Below, one piece after another: positions 40,332-46,271 of a DNA stretch of 46,743 nucleotides. A program made the translations under genes and the position numbers. Numbering within the stretch: the first letter of the stretch is position 1; every line of letters begins with the position of its first letter. The DNA comes from a virus. The stretch covers positions 1 to 46,743 of IMG/VR virus record IMGVR_UViG_3300009155_000088. One strand, given 5' to 3'. The notes under the pieces were generated by a model, which saw only the letters and a program-made list of their open reading frames with translations, did not search any database and had not been told where the DNA came from.

Positions 40332-40564
40332 TGGTTGTATTTGCTGTCTATGTGATGGATGAGTTGTTCAAGGACAGACTGCTTGTTGCCTTTGAATCCA
40401 AAGTCTTTCTTGACTTTAGCGTAGACTGATCCTCTGCTGTGCTTCATGCCAGCACACTCTAATTTGAGTGCTGACTTGAGTTGTAGAAGAGCATAAAGCT
40501 CAAACTGCTGTGGTTCTATTATTGTATACATAGGTTTTTGTTTGTATAGGTTATGTGTTCTCAT
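40328..40564 (-). CDS. Hypothetical small basic protein (78 aa)
   Basis: MRTHNLYKQKPMYTIIEPQQ, then a basic helical domain with LKLECAGMKHSRGSVYAKVK and KQSVLEQLIHHIDSKYNQ. The helix-rich, Lys-rich C-terminus could bind nucleic acid. Preceded by a two-hairpin leader (module A) and coupled to the gene below. Not recognised. Confidence 0.7.
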   Translation of the reverse strand: MRTHNLYKQKPMYTIIEPQQFELYALLQLKSALKLECAGMKHSRGSVYAKVKKDFGFKGNKQSVLEQLIHHIDSKYNQ

Positions 40565-40636
40565 TTGGTTTTTCTGATAGCATCTGCTACCAGACTGCCA
40601 GCCACTATCGTTTCCGATAATGACTGGAGTGTCTGA
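40565..40636 (-). promoter_or_regulatory. Two-hairpin leader module A
   Basis: Occupies the whole gap between two genes. Reading leftward: CAGAC, loop ACT, then CCAGTCATTATCG-GAAA-CGATAGTGGCTGG (13 bp with two G-U), CA, GTCTG. Hairpin 2 is CTGGTAGC...GCTATCAG. The opposite strand would have C-A mismatches where G-U pairs form, so the structure belongs to the leftward RNA. Confidence 0.8.
40605..40620. repeat. Dispersed palindrome copy 18 (leader A)
   Basis: CTATCGTTTCCGATAA, apex of hairpin 1; loop GAAA on the transcribed strand. Confidence 0.95.
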
Positions 40637-41185
40637 TTACATTTCTGCTTGTGCTAACAACTTGCCCATGACATTTGCATGAGATTGAACGATATCGTTA
40701 GGGTTTGTAACAAGGGACAGCTTTCCTCCTTCTTTTGATTCGCAGAATTGGTGGAGAATACTATTGAGGTAATTATTCTTTCCATCGGGATCATATATAT
40801 CTGCACCATAGAACACCCGGAGGTTAGGTTCGCACGATGCATAGATTCTAATTGTTCCAACTGACCCAAGACCATAAGTATGTCTGATATCAATGTAATG
40901 ATGGTGAGTTCCATAGATATTACCATTCCAATGGTAAATACCATCAGGATCATCAGTATTGCGGCGATGGGTTATTGTAAGATGTAACCTCGACAATTTA
41001 TTAGAATCCTCAAAAACAACTTCTAATTGCTTTTTAAGATGAACTAATCCAACTCGCGCAAGTTCATAACGAATGTGAAGTTTATCTGTCTCCTCGTTTT
41101 CTTGCTGTTCTTTTTCTTGAAGAATTGCAAGATGTTTATTTTTTATGTCTGCTACTGTTGCTCTTATGTTATTATAGTCTATCAT
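40637..41185 (-). CDS. Hypothetical protein (182 aa)
   Basis: A helical, charged N-terminal third (IKNKHLAILQEKEQQENEET) followed by a beta-rich part (LHLTITHRRNTDDPDGIYHW, YGTHHHYIDIRHTYGLGSVG, LRVFYGADIYDPDGKNNYL). No known catalytic signature. Preceded by leader module B; its TAA touches the next module. Confidence 0.7.
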   Translation of the reverse strand: MIDYNNIRATVADIKNKHLAILQEKEQQENEETDKLHIRYELARVGLVHLKKQLEVVFEDSNKLSRLHLTITHRRNTDDPDGIYHWNGNIYGTHHHYIDIRHTYGLGSVGTIRIYASCEPNLRVFYGADIYDPDGKNNYLNSILHQFCESKEGGKLSLVTNPNDIVQSHANVMGKLLAQAEM

Positions 41186-41260
41186 TGTTTCGTGTTTCTC
41201 TGACTGGTTGTAGTCAGACTACTCCCCACTATCGTGAACGATAATGAGGAGAGTGTCTGG
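41186..41260 (-). promoter_or_regulatory. Two-hairpin leader module B
   Basis: Leftward: CAGAC, ACT, then a 13-bp helix CTCCTCATTATCG/CGATAGTGGGGAG capped by TTCA, TA, GTCTG. Hairpin 2 is TCTGACT-ACAACC-AGTCAGA. Then GAGAAACACGAAACA and the ATG. Confidence 0.85.
41229..41244. repeat. Dispersed palindrome copy 19 (leader B)
   Basis: CTATCGTGAACGATAA, apex of hairpin 1. Confidence 0.95.
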
Positions 41261-41680
41261 TTACGGACAAGCGTGATTGTAGCAATCTTCGGGCGAGTTG
41301 AATGGGCCTTGAGATACAACCATGTCATCATAGTAATGCCACCCGCGATATTGATCATCTTCGACGTGGAAAGGATCAACATTTTTGATGGCATCTGTGA
41401 CATAGTCGATCAGCTTCTGAGCTTCTGGGAGCCAGCAGGCTTGATCATACTCAATCCAATTACCATCGCGGATCATTTGATCCTGATAGTTATTCACTGT
41501 CTCACGGAAGGCGGCATAGTCATATTCTTTCAGAACATCACCAGCGGACATATATGTGAATGGGCCACCGATCTGCTTGAAACTATATGTTTCATTGAGC
41601 ATCTCAATAGTAGCTTCTTCGACATCTATGTATTCATGTTCATCATAGATTCTTTCTTCTAAGTATTGTTCTCTTGTCAT
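41261..41680 (-). CDS. Hypothetical acidic protein (139 aa)
   Basis: Very acidic and aromatic (YLEERIYDEHEYIDVEEATI, YDQACWLPEAQKLIDYVTDA, HVEDDQYRGWHYYDDMVVSQ), composition reminiscent of DNA-mimic or antirestriction proteins such as ArdA-like types, though no specific motif is certain. Preceded by leader C. Confidence 0.65.
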   Translation of the reverse strand: MTREQYLEERIYDEHEYIDVEEATIEMLNETYSFKQIGGPFTYMSAGDVLKEYDYAAFRETVNNYQDQMIRDGNWIEYDQACWLPEAQKLIDYVTDAIKNVDPFHVEDDQYRGWHYYDDMVVSQGPFNSPEDCYNHACP

Positions 41681-41767
41681 ATTATTGGTTTGTTGTTTCG
41701 TGTTTACTGATTATCGGGAACGATAACCAGACTACTGCCCACCCGCGAGGATGAGCAGCGTGTCTGA
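41681..41767 (-). promoter_or_regulatory. Two-hairpin leader module C (palindrome relocated)
   Basis: Leftward: CAGAC, ACG, then a 10-bp helix CTGCTCATCC/GGGTGGGCAG with loop TCGC and no palindrome, TA, GTCTG. Here hairpin 2 is built from the palindrome: CTGGTTATCG-TTCC-CGATAATCAG. AAACACGAAACA follows. Confidence 0.85.
41711..41726. repeat. Dispersed palindrome copy 20 (leader C)
   Basis: TTATCGGGAACGATAA, forming hairpin 2 rather than hairpin 1. Confidence 0.95.
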
Positions 41768-42142
41768 TTAGTTGATTCTGACTTGAATGGAAGAAGAGTC
41801 TAAGTGATCTGTGACCTTCTCTGAAACCATCTCGTCGATGTCTATAGCATCTAATGCATTGTCGATTACACCATCGTAATCGTAATCTTTAATTGCATTT
41901 CCCACATTCTCATAAACCATATCGTGAATATCCATTGAGCTAAGATGTTCTATGACTTTACCTTGGATATTAGCATTACTGACTGCATCGTTAACACGGA
42001 TAATAACAGCATCAATAATGAGGTTATTGACCTTGTTGACAGCATTGGTGACTGCCGACTGGATGAGGATTGCAATTGCATCTTCTGAACTGATTTCAGC
42101 TTGGATGAAGTTGCCGTTGTCGTTTTTATAGTATGTTTGCAT
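41768..42142 (-). CDS. Hypothetical protein with repeated helices (124 aa)
   Basis: Rich in Asp, Ile, Val and Asn, with quasi-repeats of the type VNKVNNLIIDAVIIRVNDAV, MDIHDMVYENVGNAIKDYDY and IDIDEMVSEKVTDHLDSSS. Probably an elongated helical protein. Not recognised. Preceded by leader D. Confidence 0.7.
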   Translation of the reverse strand: MQTYYKNDNGNFIQAEISSEDAIAILIQSAVTNAVNKVNNLIIDAVIIRVNDAVSNANIQGKVIEHLSSMDIHDMVYENVGNAIKDYDYDGVIDNALDAIDIDEMVSEKVTDHLDSSSIQVRIN

Positions 42143-42225
42143 TTGGTTTTGTGTTTGGTTTCTCTACTTACACCATGTAAGCAGACTGCTGGCGTTATCG
42201 TTTCCGATAACACCAGAGTGTCTGA
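42143..42225 (-). promoter_or_regulatory. Two-hairpin leader module D
   Basis: Leftward: CAGAC, ACT, 12-bp helix CTGGTGTTATCG/CGATAACGCCAG with GAAA loop, CA, GTCTG. Hairpin 2 is CTGCTTACA-TGG-TGTAAGTAG: different bases from modules A-C, same pairing. Confidence 0.85.
42195..42210. repeat. Dispersed palindrome copy 21 (leader D)
   Basis: TTATCGTTTCCGATAA, apex of hairpin 1. Confidence 0.95.
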
Positions 42226-42492
42226 CTACGCCCAATACTTGCCGTCACATACGCGAAGGACTTGTTTGTCTTTCTTTGTTATGATTGTGACAGGTTGTTT
42301 CTTGGGAGTGGTGGCGCGGACAACGCCGATTTGTTTGATAGGAATCGCATAGAATAACTTCTTTGCTTTTACCTTACTTATTTCGAGCATAGGATGAGAG
42401 TAGCTACTACTATTTGGAAGAGCATGATGAGTATAAGAAGGTTTCTTACGCTCATGCCATTGCTTCCATAGCCTTGCGCTTTTGATATCCAT
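42226..42492 (-). CDS. Hypothetical basic protein (88 aa)
   Basis: Begins inside the end of the preceding gene (41-bp overlap) and stops with TAG one base before leader D, supporting reality. Strongly basic (LWKQWHERKKPSYTHHALPN, TTPKKQPVTIITKKDKQVLR); could bind nucleic acid. Not recognised. Confidence 0.6.
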   Translation of the reverse strand: MDIKSARLWKQWHERKKPSYTHHALPNSSSYSHPMLEISKVKAKKLFYAIPIKQIGVVRATTPKKQPVTIITKKDKQVLRVCDGKYWA

Positions 42493-43129
42493 GAGGATTT
42501 ATCCAGATGGAAGGAAGGGAAGAGCGGCGATAGTTGCCGTCACACAATCCACACTCTGAACAAGATAGACCCTTAGCATCTGCAAGACATTCGATATCGT
42601 TAACGATAGGCTCGTTGCTGACAGTGAACGTCCGCAAACCGAGGTTCTTAGCATACTCCACATTGCTTGCATTGGTAGATGCCATGAAGTATCTACCATA
42701 TGATTTGGCAAGTGGCGCAGGCATAGAATGCCAGTCATGGAAGTATCCTGTGATACGCTTGGCGAGCTTGGCAATGTCATAGACCATTTCCAGAGGAATG
42801 TGGGATGGATTACCATAAGCACCGAAGCGGACGTAAGGCACAGAGAAGAAGTCATACCATTCGCGTGTTCCCATATGGAGATATCCATAGGAGCCGCGTT
42901 GATATGCTCGCCAGATTGCACCGAGAGGATTGTCATTCACATAACATCCTTGCTTGGATGCAAACTCGCAGCCATTGCATTGATTGTCTGCGTCCGGGCC
43001 TTTGCGTGACTCGGTAGGATGCATACGCGCATCCATAATCCAAATCTGAACGCTCTTGCCTGTTTTGCGGTTCTTGCTGTTGATTGTAGCGATTACTACA
43101 ATGTCATTGGTTTCGTGTATAATATACAT
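42452..43129 (-). CDS. Cysteine-motif phage protein, Gp88-like (225 aa)
   Basis: Pattern seen in a widespread uncharacterised phage family: NRKTGKSVQIWIMDARMHP, then GPDADNQCNGCEFASKQGCY, then NPLGAIWRAYQRGSYGY. A second Cys cluster near the C-terminus reads SCSECGLCDGNYR. The Cys arrangement suggests a metal or iron-sulphur cluster, and the sequence recalls the Gp88 group, sometimes compared with radical SAM folds; no reaction is known. Preceded by leader E. A palindrome in frame encodes Ile-Val-Asn-Asp. Confidence 0.7.
   Translation of the reverse strand: MYIIHETNDIVVIATINSKNRKTGKSVQIWIMDARMHPTESRKGPDADNQCNGCEFASKQGCYVNDNPLGAIWRAYQRGSYGYLHMGTREWYDFFSVPYVRFGAYGNPSHIPLEMVYDIAKLAKRITGYFHDWHSMPAPLAKSYGRYFMASTNASNVEYAKNLGLRTFTVSNEPIVNDIECLADAKGLSCSECGLCDGNYRRSSLPSIWINPHGYQKRKAMEAMA
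42594..42609. repeat. Dispersed palindrome copy 22 (in Cys-motif gene)
   Basis: ATATCGTTAACGATAG; core perfect, outer bases diverged. Reads Ile-Val-Asn-Asp. Confidence 0.9.
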
Positions 43130-43207
43130 TTCGTGTTTTCCGACATGGTTATATGTCAGACTGCTACCGACTATCGTTTACGATAATCGGCAGAGTGTCT
43201 AACTATT
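43130..43207 (-). promoter_or_regulatory. Two-hairpin leader module E
   Basis: Leftward: TAGAC, ACT, 13-bp helix CTGCCGATTATCG/CGATAGTCGGTAG capped by TAAA (two G-U), CA, GTCTG. Hairpin 2 is CTGACAT-ATAACC-ATGTCGG. AAAACACGAA runs into the ATG of the Cys-motif gene. Confidence 0.85.
43171..43186. repeat. Dispersed palindrome copy 23 (leader E)
   Basis: CTATCGTTTACGATAA, apex of hairpin 1. Confidence 0.95.
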
Positions 43208-43219
43208 CTATATGTTCAT
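43208..43219 (-). pseudogene. Three-codon ORF between tandem leaders
   Basis: ATG-AAC-ATA-TAG directly after leader F, then leader E begins. Best read as the remnant of a deleted gene whose leader survived; a genuine micro-ORF used for translational control is the alternative. Confidence 0.45.
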
Positions 43220-43298
43220 TTGTTTCGTGTTTTCGCCGACTGGTTGTAGTCAGCCTGCTGTCCTGCTATCGTAAACGATAACAGAACAGAGTGGCTAA
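43220..43298 (-). promoter_or_regulatory. Two-hairpin leader module F
   Basis: Leftward: TAGCC, ACT, 14-bp helix CTGTTCTGTTATCG/CGATAGCAGGACAG capped by TTTA, CA, GGCTG. The base stem changed from AGAC/GTCT to AGCC/GGCT, a compensatory pair. Hairpin 2 is GCTGACT-ACAACC-AGTCGGC. AAAACACGAAACAA precedes the ATG of a three-codon ORF. Confidence 0.85.
43266..43281. repeat. Dispersed palindrome copy 24 (leader F)
   Basis: CTATCGTAAACGATAA, apex of hairpin 1. Confidence 0.95.
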
Positions 43299-43451
43299 TT
43301 ACCTGCTTTGCATATATCGCAATGCTGCGACATACTCGCGGAGTGTTTTGCGCCAATACTTATCTGACCTCATTGGCCAGTGCCTTTTAATTGCAACTAC
43401 CAAGCAAACTTGAATTGGATAGCTTATCTCAAATGGTATATGTTTTCTCAT
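43299..43451 (-). CDS. Small basic protein (50 aa)
   Basis: MRKHIPFEISYPIQVCLVVA then IKRHWPMRSDKYWRKTLREY. Starts one base after the zinc-protein stop, and its TAA is immediately followed by leader F, so both ends agree with a real gene. Basic, with a short hydrophobic stretch; not recognised. Confidence 0.65.
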   Translation of the reverse strand: MRKHIPFEISYPIQVCLVVAIKRHWPMRSDKYWRKTLREYVAALRYMQSR

Positions 43452-43452
43452 A

Positions 43453-43707
43453 TTATTCGATAATAAGAAGCCCCATCATAAGAAGTTCTTCCATTCCATA
43501 TACTGTGCGCTTGTCACAGCATTCGCAATGGTAACGACGAGCGTCAGGCTCAACGCCATCGACCTCTTCACCACAGGTTAAGCACCAGCCGCGACCGCCC
43601 ATACCGAACATGATGTCATGCATCTCGTCGGCAGTAACAATCGGGATAGTATACTTGTTACCTTTATCGGATACGATATCTTTAGTTGTATCGATTGATT
43701 TATTCAT
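43453..43707 (-). CDS. Small zinc-ribbon-like protein (84 aa)
   Basis: Two CxxC pairs, WCLTCGEEVDG and YHCECCDKRTVYG, spaced as a zinc ribbon, then a hydrophobic end (GMEELLMMGLLIIE). First gene after the operon promoter. A palindrome in frame encodes Ile-Val-Ser-Asp. Zinc ribbons in early phage genes often bind nucleic acid or host proteins; role unknown. Confidence 0.7.
   Translation of the reverse strand: MNKSIDTTKDIVSDKGNKYTIPIVTADEMHDIMFGMGGRGWCLTCGEEVDGVEPDARRYHCECCDKRTVYGMEELLMMGLLIIE
43664..43679. repeat. Dispersed palindrome copy 25 (in zinc-ribbon gene)
   Basis: TTATCGGATACGATAT, read as Ile-Val-Ser-Asp. Confidence 0.92.
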
Positions 43708-43770
43708 TTTGTTTCGTGTGTTATGACTCTGCGTTTGCGTTATGCTTTACGGGATTGTCACCGCTTTGAA

Positions 43771-43786
43771 TTATCGGATACGATAA
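43771..43786. repeat. Dispersed palindrome copy 26
   Basis: TTATCGGATACGATAA in the long operon leader. Confidence 0.95.
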
Positions 43787-43811
43787 CCAAATCCGCATTA
43801 CACCGCTGACA

Positions 43812-43827
43812 TTATCTTTTACGATAA
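43812..43827. repeat. Dispersed palindrome copy 27, degenerate
   Basis: TTATCTTTTACGATAA, one core mismatch, in the long operon leader 25 bp from copy 26. Confidence 0.75.
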
Positions 43828-43918
43828 TGCCAACGGCACACGAAAAACCGAAACTGAAAACCTAAACTGGTAAATGATCGATTGTCATTGGAAGACGCTA
43901 CCTCCCCCGACTATTAAT

Positions 43919-43947
43919 ACTATACCACAAGACACCCACTTTGTCAA
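43919..43947 (-). promoter_or_regulatory. Strong promoter of the leftward operon
   Basis: TTGACA (43942-43947) with context CTATTGACA, 17-bp spacer, TATAGT (43919-43924). The best sigma70-like match in the window. The transcribed start shares a 30-bp similarity with the promoter at 45668. Confidence 0.85.
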
Positions 43948-43994
43948 TAGTTATATGTATTTATTTCACATTTAGTCAAAATAATTTTATTGAT

Positions 43995-44010
43995 TTATCG
44001 TAACCGATAA
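43995..44010. repeat. Dispersed palindrome copy 28
   Basis: TTATCGTAACCGATAA, 14 bp before the TerS-like ATG. Confidence 0.95.
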
Positions 44011-44024
44011 TCTACTTTTCGGCC

Positions 44025-44624
44025 ATGAAAGCAAAGAAGCACGTTGATGCGAGAAAGAAATGGGACATGGATAAAGTGAGGGCTTTATACATACAGGGAA
44101 ACGAAATCGCGGACATAGTAAAGATGCCAGAGTTTAATGGACTCTCACGCTTCTATGTGAAGAACGTAATGATTAAGGGTCAGTGGTCGAAGCAGCGTCA
44201 GCTAATCCGTGTGCAATCGACGGGCATGATTGAGAAGACAATCATTGACGCAATGAAGGATCAAACCGAAGAGCATCTGAGGTTTATGCTCAAACAAGTG
44301 AGCGAGGAAAGGGCGGAGATAGTTGCCAGAAAGAAGATGGGCAACATAAAAGAGCAAAGGGAACGCTTGGAAGTGCTGTCAGAATTAGACAAGACGGCGC
44401 GCAGAACGCTTGGCTTGGATGACCAAAACATTGGTGATAAACGGGCAATGAGCGTGAACGCGATGATCAGCTTGCACATGACTGGGCCACAGAAAGCGGA
44501 AGAGGTGGAAGTAATATCCGGGCAATACGTGGAAGGAGAAAGTGGGGAACGTAACGAAGTGGAAGAGGCTATCGTTTACGATAACGAAGGGGAAGTGGAA
44601 GAAGGGGAAGAGCAAGCAGTTTGA
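44025..44624 (+). CDS. Probable terminase small subunit (199 aa)
   Basis: N-terminal helix-turn-helix (WDMDKVRALYIQGNEIADIV, LSRFYVKNVMIKGQW), then a long coiled-coil (DQTEEHLRFMLKQVSEERAE, IKEQRERLEVLSELDKTARR), then an acidic tail. This order of DNA-binding, oligomerisation and C-terminal segments is the plan of phage TerS proteins, which recognise the packaging site. It is a single-gene rightward unit with its own terminator. If the molecule is circular or permuted, it lies about 4 kb from TerL. A palindrome in frame encodes Ile-Val-Tyr-Asp. A regulator is the alternative. Confidence 0.55.
   Translation: MKAKKHVDARKKWDMDKVRALYIQGNEIADIVKMPEFNGLSRFYVKNVMIKGQWSKQRQLIRVQSTGMIEKTIIDAMKDQTEEHLRFMLKQVSEERAEIVARKKMGNIKEQRERLEVLSELDKTARRTLGLDDQNIGDKRAMSVNAMISLHMTGPQKAEEVEVISGQYVEGESGERNEVEEAIVYDNEGEVEEGEEQAV
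44569..44584. repeat. Dispersed palindrome copy 29 (in TerS-like gene)
   Basis: CTATCGTTTACGATAA, read as Ile-Val-Tyr-Asp. Confidence 0.93.
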
Positions 44625-44661
44625 AGCTGGCGAATCTCAGATTATTTTTGGGCACAAAAAA

Positions 44662-44693
44662 GGGTGACCACCGAAGTGATCACCCAATTTTTT
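44662..44693. terminator. Bidirectional terminator
   Basis: GGGTGACCAC pairs with GTGATCACCC around CGAA (TTCG loop on the leftward strand, all ten pairs possible there with G-U). T runs follow in both directions. Ends the TerS-like gene and the leftward micro-gene. Confidence 0.85.
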
Positions 44694-44772
44694 AGAGGAG
44701 TCTAAAGATAATGAACGCGACCATAAGCGCGATCACAAGTACCTTCAGAAATACCTTTTCTTGTATACTCAT
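44692..44772 (-). CDS. Single-span membrane micropeptide (26 aa)
   Basis: MSIQEKVFLKVLVIALMVAF then IIFRLL: short charged start and one membrane helix. Its ATG follows the upstream TAA with no gap, and its stop lies at the terminator, so it is the last gene of that transcript. Possible membrane-acting accessory; function unknown. Confidence 0.55.
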   Translation of the reverse strand: MSIQEKVFLKVLVIALMVAFIIFRLL

Positions 44773-45495
44773 TTACTTTTTAGCCTTCAATGTTTCAACG
44801 GCTTTTGATGCATCCGATGGGAGGAACGTATAGTTTCCGATGACCATCTTTGCGATGATTTGACGTGTTAGCTTTAAACGTGCTTCGTGCTCTCCTAGTT
44901 TCGCGTATCGGTCAACATATGTTAAGATGAGAGTTTCCATCTTATCGGCTTCGTCGGCTACGTTAACGGCAACTGGCGCGCTAGTCTCTTCATGCTTTTC
45001 TGGTTTATTACTCGGCTGGATCGACTCCTTAACCGCCCTAGGCGATTTACCCTCATTAAGGAGCGCGACCGCTTGCGAGCTAGTGTTATCACCCTTTAAG
45101 AGTTTCGACACTTCGCGTAGCGCATACAGATCCTTTACCTTGTCAATGCTGAGACCCTTGTCCTCAAATGAGGGGAGGGCTTTCGAGATGCTGATAAGGT
45201 TCGGTATTGTCGATCCGCTCCAACGTGCCTTGAGCTGTTCAGCGTAAGCTTTGCTCTGCTCTTCTGGCTTGTTCTTAAATACCCATGCACTAAATAAGAT
45301 TGCGTCTCTGATAGCAGATTGCCCGGCGTCGAGCTTAGTGATGACATAACCCACAGCGTCTTCTGTTGAGATATCGGCTGCTTTGCTGCTTTCCATATAC
45401 CCAAGAGAGTTTCTCTTGAACATCTGGTCAATTGCCAATGGCTCACGGACTACGCTAAGGTTTGCTGTCGCTGTTTTTTTGTTTGCTGTTTTCAT
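44773..45495 (-). CDS. KorB/ParB-like helical regulator (240 aa)
   Basis: The central region has AILFSAWVFKNKPEEQSKAY, GSTIPNLISISKALPSFEDK, YALREVSKLLKGDNTSSQAV and EGKSPRAVKESIQ, spacing like the helix-turn-helix core of ParB/KorB-type proteins. A Pro/Ser/Ala linker follows, then a C-terminal helical domain (LTYVDRYAKLGEHEARLKLT) that could dimerise. It has its own promoter and a structured leader, with a palindrome upstream, so it is a good candidate for an autoregulated DNA-binding protein. Family call is tentative. Confidence 0.5.
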   Translation of the reverse strand: MKTANKKTATANLSVVREPLAIDQMFKRNSLGYMESSKAADISTEDAVGYVITKLDAGQSAIRDAILFSAWVFKNKPEEQSKAYAEQLKARWSGSTIPNLISISKALPSFEDKGLSIDKVKDLYALREVSKLLKGDNTSSQAVALLNEGKSPRAVKESIQPSNKPEKHEETSAPVAVNVADEADKMETLILTYVDRYAKLGEHEARLKLTRQIIAKMVIGNYTFLPSDASKAVETLKAKK

Positions 45496-45661
45496 GTTTA
45501 GTCTTTCGGTTTATCTGACGGCCACAAGCAAAGCACAGATTTAGTGCCTTCAAGGTTTATCCCTTGCCATAGTGGACTAATTGCCATCAGATTGCCGAAA
45601 GCTAAAAAGTAAATTCAAATGTCACAGATCAAATCGCAGCGCGAGACGTGCCTCGGCCACT
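45496..45661 (-). promoter_or_regulatory. Structured 5' leader of the KorB-like gene
   Basis: Leftward RNA: CTTTCGG pairs with CCGAAAG (45595-45601 with 45503-45509), and ATCTGATGGC with GCCGTCAGAT (45583-45592 with 45513-45522). These enclose CAAGG/CCTTG and GCAC/GTGC hairpins, a multibranch fold seven bases before the ATG. Riboswitch-like in form; no known class recognised. Confidence 0.55.
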
Positions 45662-45667
45662 ATTAAG

Positions 45668-45696
45668 ATACTAGCACAGGTCAGCGTGAACGTCAA
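45668..45696 (-). promoter_or_regulatory. Promoter of the KorB-like gene
   Basis: TTGACG (45691-45696) in context CTATTGACG, 17-bp spacer, TAGTAT (45668-45673). A palindrome ends about 20 bp upstream. Confidence 0.75.
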
Positions 45697-45716
45697 TAGC
45701 ATTAGATGTTTTTTTC

Positions 45717-45732
45717 GTATCGTGCACGATAA
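45717..45732. repeat. Dispersed palindrome copy 30
   Basis: GTATCGTGCACGATAA, 20 bp upstream of the -35 box of the KorB-like gene. Confidence 0.92.
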
Positions 45733-45910
45733 TTTTTCGGCTAGTTAATAGTGCAGATTATTCTTGCCAAGTCTTCTATCGTTATGCAGCGATGGAAGGA
45801 ATCTCTTATTCTGTGGCAGGCCGATGCCGGTACCCGGCTACCCCACCATGCCCAACTCGCGGATGCTGCAAGCGGTATACCCCTCTCCCCATAAAAACTG
45901 CCATTTTGTA

Positions 45911-45931
45911 TGTCAATATAGTCTATTGACA
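45911..45931. promoter_or_regulatory. Inverted repeat TGTCAATA/TATTGACA
   Basis: Perfect 8-bp arms around TAGTC, placing TTGACA boxes facing outward on both strands. It uses the same words as the inverted repeat at 442-457 in reversed order. Confidence 0.5.
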
Positions 45932-45932
45932 A

Positions 45933-45995
45933 GTCTTATGCTACCCATGCAGCTACGCTGACCTATGTCTTATGCTTCGCCCTATGTCTTATGCT
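45933..45995 (+). repeat. Three direct repeats GTCTTATGCT
   Basis: Copies at 45933-45942, 45967-45976 and 45986-45995 (the last two extended to CCTATGTCTTATGCT), plus a degenerate fourth (TGTCGTATGGT) near 45998. Iteron-like. Confidence 0.7.
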
Positions 45996-46072
45996 AATGT
46001 CGTATGGTTAGCTATTCTGAAATGGCGAATATACTCCAAGTTGGATATATTTAGAATATACGCTGATTAGTA

Positions 46073-46088
46073 TTATCGTTACCGATAA
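46073..46088. repeat. Dispersed palindrome copy 31
   Basis: TTATCGTTACCGATAA, immediately after the stop of the leftward small-gene operon. Confidence 0.95.
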
Positions 46089-46271
46089 TTAGAGTTCTCT
46101 ATTCTTGAGTTTCATATTAGTCGATGTGAAGGTTAGCCATACCCTTTGGCGGTTTCCTATGTTATCGGTTATTTCTCCGAGGTTGAACATCCTGTCTTTG
46201 TGTTCATCTTCAGACTTGAATTTATCTACTGTGTCTTTGATTAGTTGGAGTATTTCTTGTTCTTGTTTCAT
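46089..46271 (-). CDS. Small hypothetical protein (60 aa)
   Basis: MKQEQEILQLIKDTVDKFKS then a polar domain with RQRVWLTFTSTNMKLKNREL. Helical N-terminus. ATGA overlap with the gene above; a palindrome follows its stop. Not recognised. Confidence 0.6.
   Translation of the reverse strand: MKQEQEILQLIKDTVDKFKSEDEHKDRMFNLGEITDNIGNRQRVWLTFTSTNMKLKNREL

Follow-up and report, generated by a model that had tools for sequence, protein, structure and literature searches.

Why does a phage operon repeat one two-hairpin plan in gap after gap between its genes? The question is raised by IMG/VR virus record IMGVR_UViG_3300009155_000088, of which positions 1 to 46,743 were analyzed (46,743 nucleotides (nt); hereafter, the window). 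Six modules, A to F, of about 72-88 nt each lie on the minus strand between positions 40565 and 43298, just where a sequence-only reading had placed them. We describe them here as a well-supported new family of intercistronic strand-exchange RNA of phages, with novelty judged against Rfam 15. The family is real and its RNA structure is well supported; any function is a proposal.

The repeated element and its relatives

Each module begins with a base stem (P1), which reads (C/T)AGAC...GTCTG in the window modules and TAGCC...GGCTG in module F. An asymmetric 3x2 internal loop, ACT (ACG in C) opposite CA or TA, separates P1 from an upper helix of 10-14 bp in the window, and 3′ of this helix stands a second hairpin (hairpin 2), followed by an A-rich leader and ATG. 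The sequence-only reading had outlined the same plan, and had called the modules two-hairpin leaders that reach from the stop of one gene to the start of the next. The parts are all present; however, that description was understated, as the element is always intercistronic and lies in fixed register with the stop codon of the gene before it. The stop-to-start layout holds as well, except that module F is followed by a three-codon remnant and no gene. The features are as follows, with lengths in amino acids (aa) and covariance model (CM) scores in bits.

40565..40636, minus strand: module A, stop-to-start between the 182-aa and 78-aa genes; CM 59.3 bits, E 2.9e-13; flanked by stop TAA 40639-40637 and by ATG at 40564
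40631..40635, minus strand: strand a of module A, the left base-stem arm CAGAC
40591..40595, minus strand: strand b of module A, the right base-stem arm GTCTG, common to hairpin 2
40573..40594, minus strand: hairpin 2 of module A, TCTGGTAGC-AGAT-GCTATCAGA, whose right arm is strand a′
41186..41260, minus strand: module B, stop-to-start between the 139-aa and 182-aa genes; CM 55.6 bits; stop TAA 41263-41261
41199..41218, minus strand: hairpin 2 of module B, TCTGACT-ACAACC-AGTCAGA
41681..41767, minus strand: module C, stop-to-start; internal loop ACG/TA; CM 51.3 bits
41707..41730, minus strand: hairpin 2 of module C, CTGGTTATCG-TTCC-CGATAATCAG
42143..42225, minus strand: module D, stop-to-start; CM 52.4 bits; stop TAG 42228-42226
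42163..42185, minus strand: hairpin 2 of module D
43130..43202, minus strand: module E, stop-to-start, 5′ of the 225-aa gene; CM 59.5 bits; preceded by TAG 43205-43203
43139..43160, minus strand: hairpin 2 of module E
43220..43298, minus strand: module F, stop-to-start; base stem TAGCC/GGCTG; CM 53.6 bits; stop TAA 43301-43299
43235..43254, minus strand: hairpin 2 of module F

The covariance model (R1), built from 22 copies, matched only the six modules in the window, with E values from 2.5e-13 to 3.5e-11. The gap to the next-best match, the antisense of module B at E 0.097, rules out chance as the source of the modules. Coding constraint is ruled out likewise, because the modules are non-coding.

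A degenerate pattern run over IMG/VR gave 48 stretches, more than half of them with the full fold. Copies were present, 1-6 in each, in 29 of 29 phage records searched (the window and 28 other IMG/VR records), all picked because one copy had already been seen in each. Several copies in a genome occupy one operon. One group of records is related to the window phage; the others (L020/L135/L150, L031/L128/L044, L008/L139, L125 and L023) have the RNA in common and, as far as seen, not the neighbouring genes. Model R1 gave 51-60 bits to the six window copies and 25-63 bits to the phage relatives, as compared with at most 22 bits for background loci of similar pattern. Loci newly found in viral contigs with the pattern AGCCACTC...GCAGGCTG also scored at most 22 bits and were set aside as chance. 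Across the family, the upper helix is 10 to 15 bp long. In 257 Gb of cellular genomes, a stricter pattern returned 12 matches, none with the upper helix, and these non-folding matches are a useful chance control.

The sequence-only reading knew of no described family of this kind, and Rfam 15 bears this out: the window had no match at the gathering score, and the only match in the module region up to E=5 was a chance snoRNA (E 4.6). On the distant loci, Rfam 15 found tRNAs only. A known self-cleaving ribozyme was rejected, with no Rfam ribozyme match to the modules. Among isolated phages, megablast with a 20-kb window stretch or a distant locus gave no match, and no terminase relative was found; a blastn match of Roseburia phage Shimadzu to module E (E 0.3) was rejected, as it lies in the tape-measure gene. 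Protein-guided searches from the distant loci returned near-identical phages only.

Selection on the RNA pairing

Among 60 distinct copies, 98.1% of base-pair cells hold standard pairs, compared with 71.8% when shuffled and 33-52% with slid partners, and changes on both sides occur at 15 of the 17 pairs. Covariation was examined by a test in the spirit of R-scape, in which substitutions reconstructed along a FastTree phylogeny were redistributed among columns and G statistics after average product correction (APC) were compared. Against this phylogeny-aware simulation, 8 of 12 upper-helix pairs covary at E<=0.05 and no off-structure pair was significant, so that the covariation proposed earlier does exceed the phylogenetic background. 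Two inner pairs of hairpin 2 stand at the E floor of 0.008 and a further one at E=0.08, in a register picked by best pairing, which favours hairpin 2. The compensatory swaps claimed for the stems hold for the outer upper helix; the base stem in the window varies compensatorily only in F, and the case for its covariation, a borderline one, rests on the relatives.

The pairs also tell the strand. In P1 and the upper helix of 58 distinct copies, G-U outnumbers A-C 124 to 1, a count somewhat favoured by patterns and a model that allowed G-U when the copies were gathered. The folding strand is therefore the leftward mRNA, as the sequence-only reading had argued from its G-U pairs.

The tips of the upper helices have to be treated apart, since they carry a separate DNA palindrome, TATCGNNNNCGATA (TTATCG-NNNN-CGATAA), that occurs genome-wide. 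The window holds 29 exact copies, with 0.7 expected when one mismatch is allowed; the sites span 35 to 46074 and are dense in 40600-46100, coding sequence included. The central letters are mostly G..A, T..C or T..A. In the modules, the palindrome is found at the following places.

40606..40619, no strand assigned: tip of the upper helix of module A
41230, 42196, 43172 and 43267: tips of modules B, D, E and F
41712: module C, within hairpin 2 rather than the upper helix

The palindrome may be a DNA-binding site family, repressor/stoperator-like or centromere-like. Tip conservation is no evidence of selection on RNA, and the persistent pairing noted before stands for the outer upper helix and not for the palindromic tips. 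Could the helices be a mere by-product of repressor-site-like palindromes set in gene gaps? Most related records have 17-32 copies, as would suit this idea, together with the five module tips; however, distant phages carry the RNA element with 0-1 palindromes, and the base stem, internal loop, outer upper helix and hairpin 2 all fall outside the palindrome. As an explanation of the whole element it is thus refuted, and we regard it as extremely improbable.

Stop-codon register and two competing folds

The element is tied to the end of the upstream gene. In 66 of 67 copies, the end of an upstream open reading frame (ORF) of 45 or more codons lies within 20 nt of P1, and the stop begins exactly 4 nt 5′ of P1, with one base between, in 47 of 70. 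Of the 28 upstream gene families, 16 have this register as their commonest one. Nine copies use the UAG of UAGAC itself as the stop codon. P1 often extends across the stop codon: bases -1 to -5, which include it, find partners in the bases that follow GTCTG in 77% of cases, compared with 20-48% when slid by 1 to 6 nt.

At the other end, Shine-Dalgarno (SD)-like sequences precede only 2 of 67 starts after modules and 5 of 48 starts in the window, and positions -20 to -1 before the starts after modules are 55% A. In Bacteroidia, upstream adenines and low structure set initiation in place of SD sequences (PMC9976891). The start context in the window fits this pattern, and the host may be Bacteroidota-like, going by the absent SD sequences and A-rich starts only.

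Strand b takes part in two helices. In 56 of 59 distinct copies, its last three nt belong to an unbroken stem formed with downstream sequence, whereas 19.7 are expected from shuffled leaders, confirming the overlap of base stem and hairpin 2 that had been read from the window. A geometry scan free of stem sequence, which required the first A of the 5′ loop strand and the last A of the 3′ loop strand, recovered known as well as divergent copies, with 0.33 matches per shuffled set; its few extra matches, with large loops and inside coding sequence, are probably due to chance. L218/L223 have CGCAAGC/GCTTGCG as P1, and GCTTGCG is reused in hairpin 2 (b=GCUUGCG). In L215 at 6399, P1 is ATTCCA/TGGAGT, and TGGAGT has ACTCTA as its partner in hairpin 2 (a=AUUCCA, b=UGGAGU, a′=ACUCUA). 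Therefore, two lineages altered all three strands yet retained both pairings.

The two folds are mutually exclusive and of near-equal energy, in line with the competition suggested earlier: E(state 1)-E(state 2), in which state 1 has the base stem and state 2 the full hairpin 2, is -1.4 +/- 2.1 kcal/mol over 69 copies, of which 50 favour state 1. In most copies, state 2 allows the internal-loop ACU to pair with AGU and lengthen the upper helix, which accounts for the conserved loop sequence in those copies. A possible C-loop 3D motif for ACU/CA was also considered. The start codon and the A-rich leader are unpaired in both states. Neither hairpin is followed by a run of T, which rules out intrinsic terminators.

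Some relatives have further structure downstream. In L218/L223, 3′ of the first module, CCAAAGA...CCCCTA...TCTTTGG...TAGGGG may fold into an H-type pseudoknot ahead of the start codon, with no Rfam match. At L215:4710 and L216:4862, a third small hairpin, CTGTCA-loop-TGACAG, lies downstream of hairpin 2, and at L044:10189 a repeated ATGACAG alone is found there.

Possible roles of the strand exchange

What might such an arrangement do? We tentatively favour the proposal that the modules are cis-acting strand-exchange elements flipped by the terminating ribosome, which would set the length of free leader before an SD-less start. Specifically, strand a is the left base-stem arm and begins 1 nt past the stop codon of the upstream gene, and strand a′ is the right arm of hairpin 2, located shortly before the next start; both are complementary to the single strand b (GUCUG and following bases), which can pair with only one of them at a time. 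State 1 (a:b) consists of the base stem capped by the 3x2 loop and upper helix, and often reaches over the stop codon; state 2 (b:a′) consists of the full hairpin 2 with, in most copies, an upper helix lengthened by ACU:AGU. The proposal is based on the inference that a ribosome with the stop in its A site would cover strand a, and such a ribosome would shift the RNA to state 2, with state 1 somewhat favoured when no ribosome is terminating. Upstream termination would then set the single-stranded leader before the next start, and the element might thus couple, or insulate, the translation of neighbouring genes. The trigger, the response of the next gene's expression and the direction of that response are all parts of this conjecture.

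Several observations weigh against this proposal. The covariation of the base stem is borderline (best pair E=0.1). The stop-codon pairing is in register, yet it is not significant as covariation, and 77% is also attained by one of the slid registers (-3), for which cells are few. Compact packing could account for the fixed stop register. Because the start codon and leader are free in both states, a simple on/off sequestration does not apply. Reinitiation would have to span a gap of about 72-88 nt that contains two hairpins, a long distance for this kind of coupling, and a negative correlation between coupling and structure immediately 3′ of a stop codon has been reported (review PMC12548453).

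An RNA-processing site, although doubtful, is nearly as good an explanation. Here, RNase III or a similar nuclease would cut the interrupted helix to give single-gene messages; the upstream message would retain a hairpin after its stop codon, and the downstream message would begin at or near strand b, which would leave a and fold with a′ into a 5′-terminal hairpin. The strand exchange would thereby separate the products and cap the new 5′ end. This would explain why b pairs first with a and then with a′, and it suits modules that are always intercistronic, on one strand only, and built as helix, internal loop and helix. However, the length of the upper helix varies from 10 to 15 bp, and processing alone would not require that exactly 1 nt lie between stop codon and stem.

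In T7, hairpins processed by RNase III (R0.3 to R1.3, R1.1) separate the early genes, and the modules resemble these signals in being internal-loop hairpins between consecutive genes of a phage operon on one strand only; an early timing of the operon here is a presumption. No three-strand exchange or fixed 1-nt stop register is known in the T7 signals; the modules have both. The R1.1 RNA of T7 is a phage processing signal in which RNase III cuts a single bond (PMC4858673).

A phage or host protein that recognizes the internal loop (A[C/A]N opposite NA) together with neighbouring pairs, and so regulates the whole operon, is unlikely. The first A of the 5′ loop strand and the last A of the 3′ loop strand are constant while the stems change, albeit as letters the geometry scan demanded, and several copies per genome within one operon would suit an operator. 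Conversely, there is little conserved single-stranded sequence, ACU is explained in most copies by its alternative pairing with AGU, and no candidate protein emerged.

Two features of the genes between the modules are as follows.

43219-43208 (43208..43219), minus strand: remnant ORF ATG AAC ATA TAG, directly after module F
42452-43129, minus strand: 225-aa Cys-containing protein, phrog_2554 (unknown function)

At the place after F, relatives have an 85-88 aa gene starting MNISELKK, and the remnant is the start of that gene joined to the sequence before module E. It marks a deletion of the MNISELKK gene present in L227 and L234. This slot holds only the remnant in the window, two genes in L227/L234, and other genes in L225, L230 and L162. 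The same gene is found after different modules in related phages, and hybrid modules exist: L227, lacking the intervening gene, joins the upper helix of B to hairpin 2 of A. Since gene content shuffles between modules, the module is a gene-independent linker. Relatives of the 225-aa protein, at 31-34% identity, occur in mycobacteriophages, Gordonia, Yersinia and other phages, and similar-looking proteins lie near modules in L216 and L219.

Could the modules then be gene-cassette boundaries, in which a shared gene-end sequence promotes recombination and gene exchange, with any RNA function secondary? Genes that come and go in relatives, the hybrid modules and the remnant after F would all be expected. 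However, recombination needs DNA similarity, yet the stems diverge while RNA pairing and strand-specific G-U pairs persist. The G-U/A-C asymmetry already weakens this account, which we consider very unlikely; it and the protein operator are both weaker than the ribosome-flipped exchange and the processing site.

Other known systems differ in part. According to a citing description (Arbiol et al. 2010; Comeau et al. 2014, as cited in PMC4503421), the PeSLs (promoter early stem-loops) of T4-type phages consist of an early promoter and a stem-loop/terminator. As far as that description goes, they likewise are repeated intergenic stem-loop cassettes tied to gene shuffling; unlike them, the modules conserve RNA pairings, have no T-run after them and run stop-to-start inside an operon. 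In translational coupling by RNA unfolding (MS2 coat-lysis, rpmI-rplT; PMC12548453), an upstream ribosome alters pairing that affects the next gene, as we propose for the modules. However, the known cases sequester the downstream ribosome-binding site, whereas the module start is free in both folds, and here one reusable module serves many gene pairs. With attenuators and riboswitches (trp leader type), the modules share one strand common to two competing helices, which in the 69 copies are mutually exclusive and of similar energy; the modules differ from them in standing between genes and not at the operon head, with no terminator or start-sequestering helix and no ligand-sized conserved core.

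Taken more broadly, it is possible, and held with more reserve than the ribosome-flipped exchange itself, that the element is a reusable three-strand exchange device of a previously undescribed kind, locked to the upstream stop and set into successive gene gaps of one phage operon, through which a terminating ribosome (or a cut) would pass control on to the following gene in non-SD hosts, with genes swappable as plug-in cassettes. The family is a structured phage RNA absent from Rfam with strong comparative support, and it bears on the partitioning of polycistronic messages in non-SD hosts, which is poorly understood. As a repeated natural element with natural compensatory variants, it makes this question directly testable. 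If the stop-codon register is functional, operon engineering in Bacteroidota-like hosts would gain a compact part of natural origin for coupling or insulation, and the module would suggest how phages keep accessory genes interchangeable.

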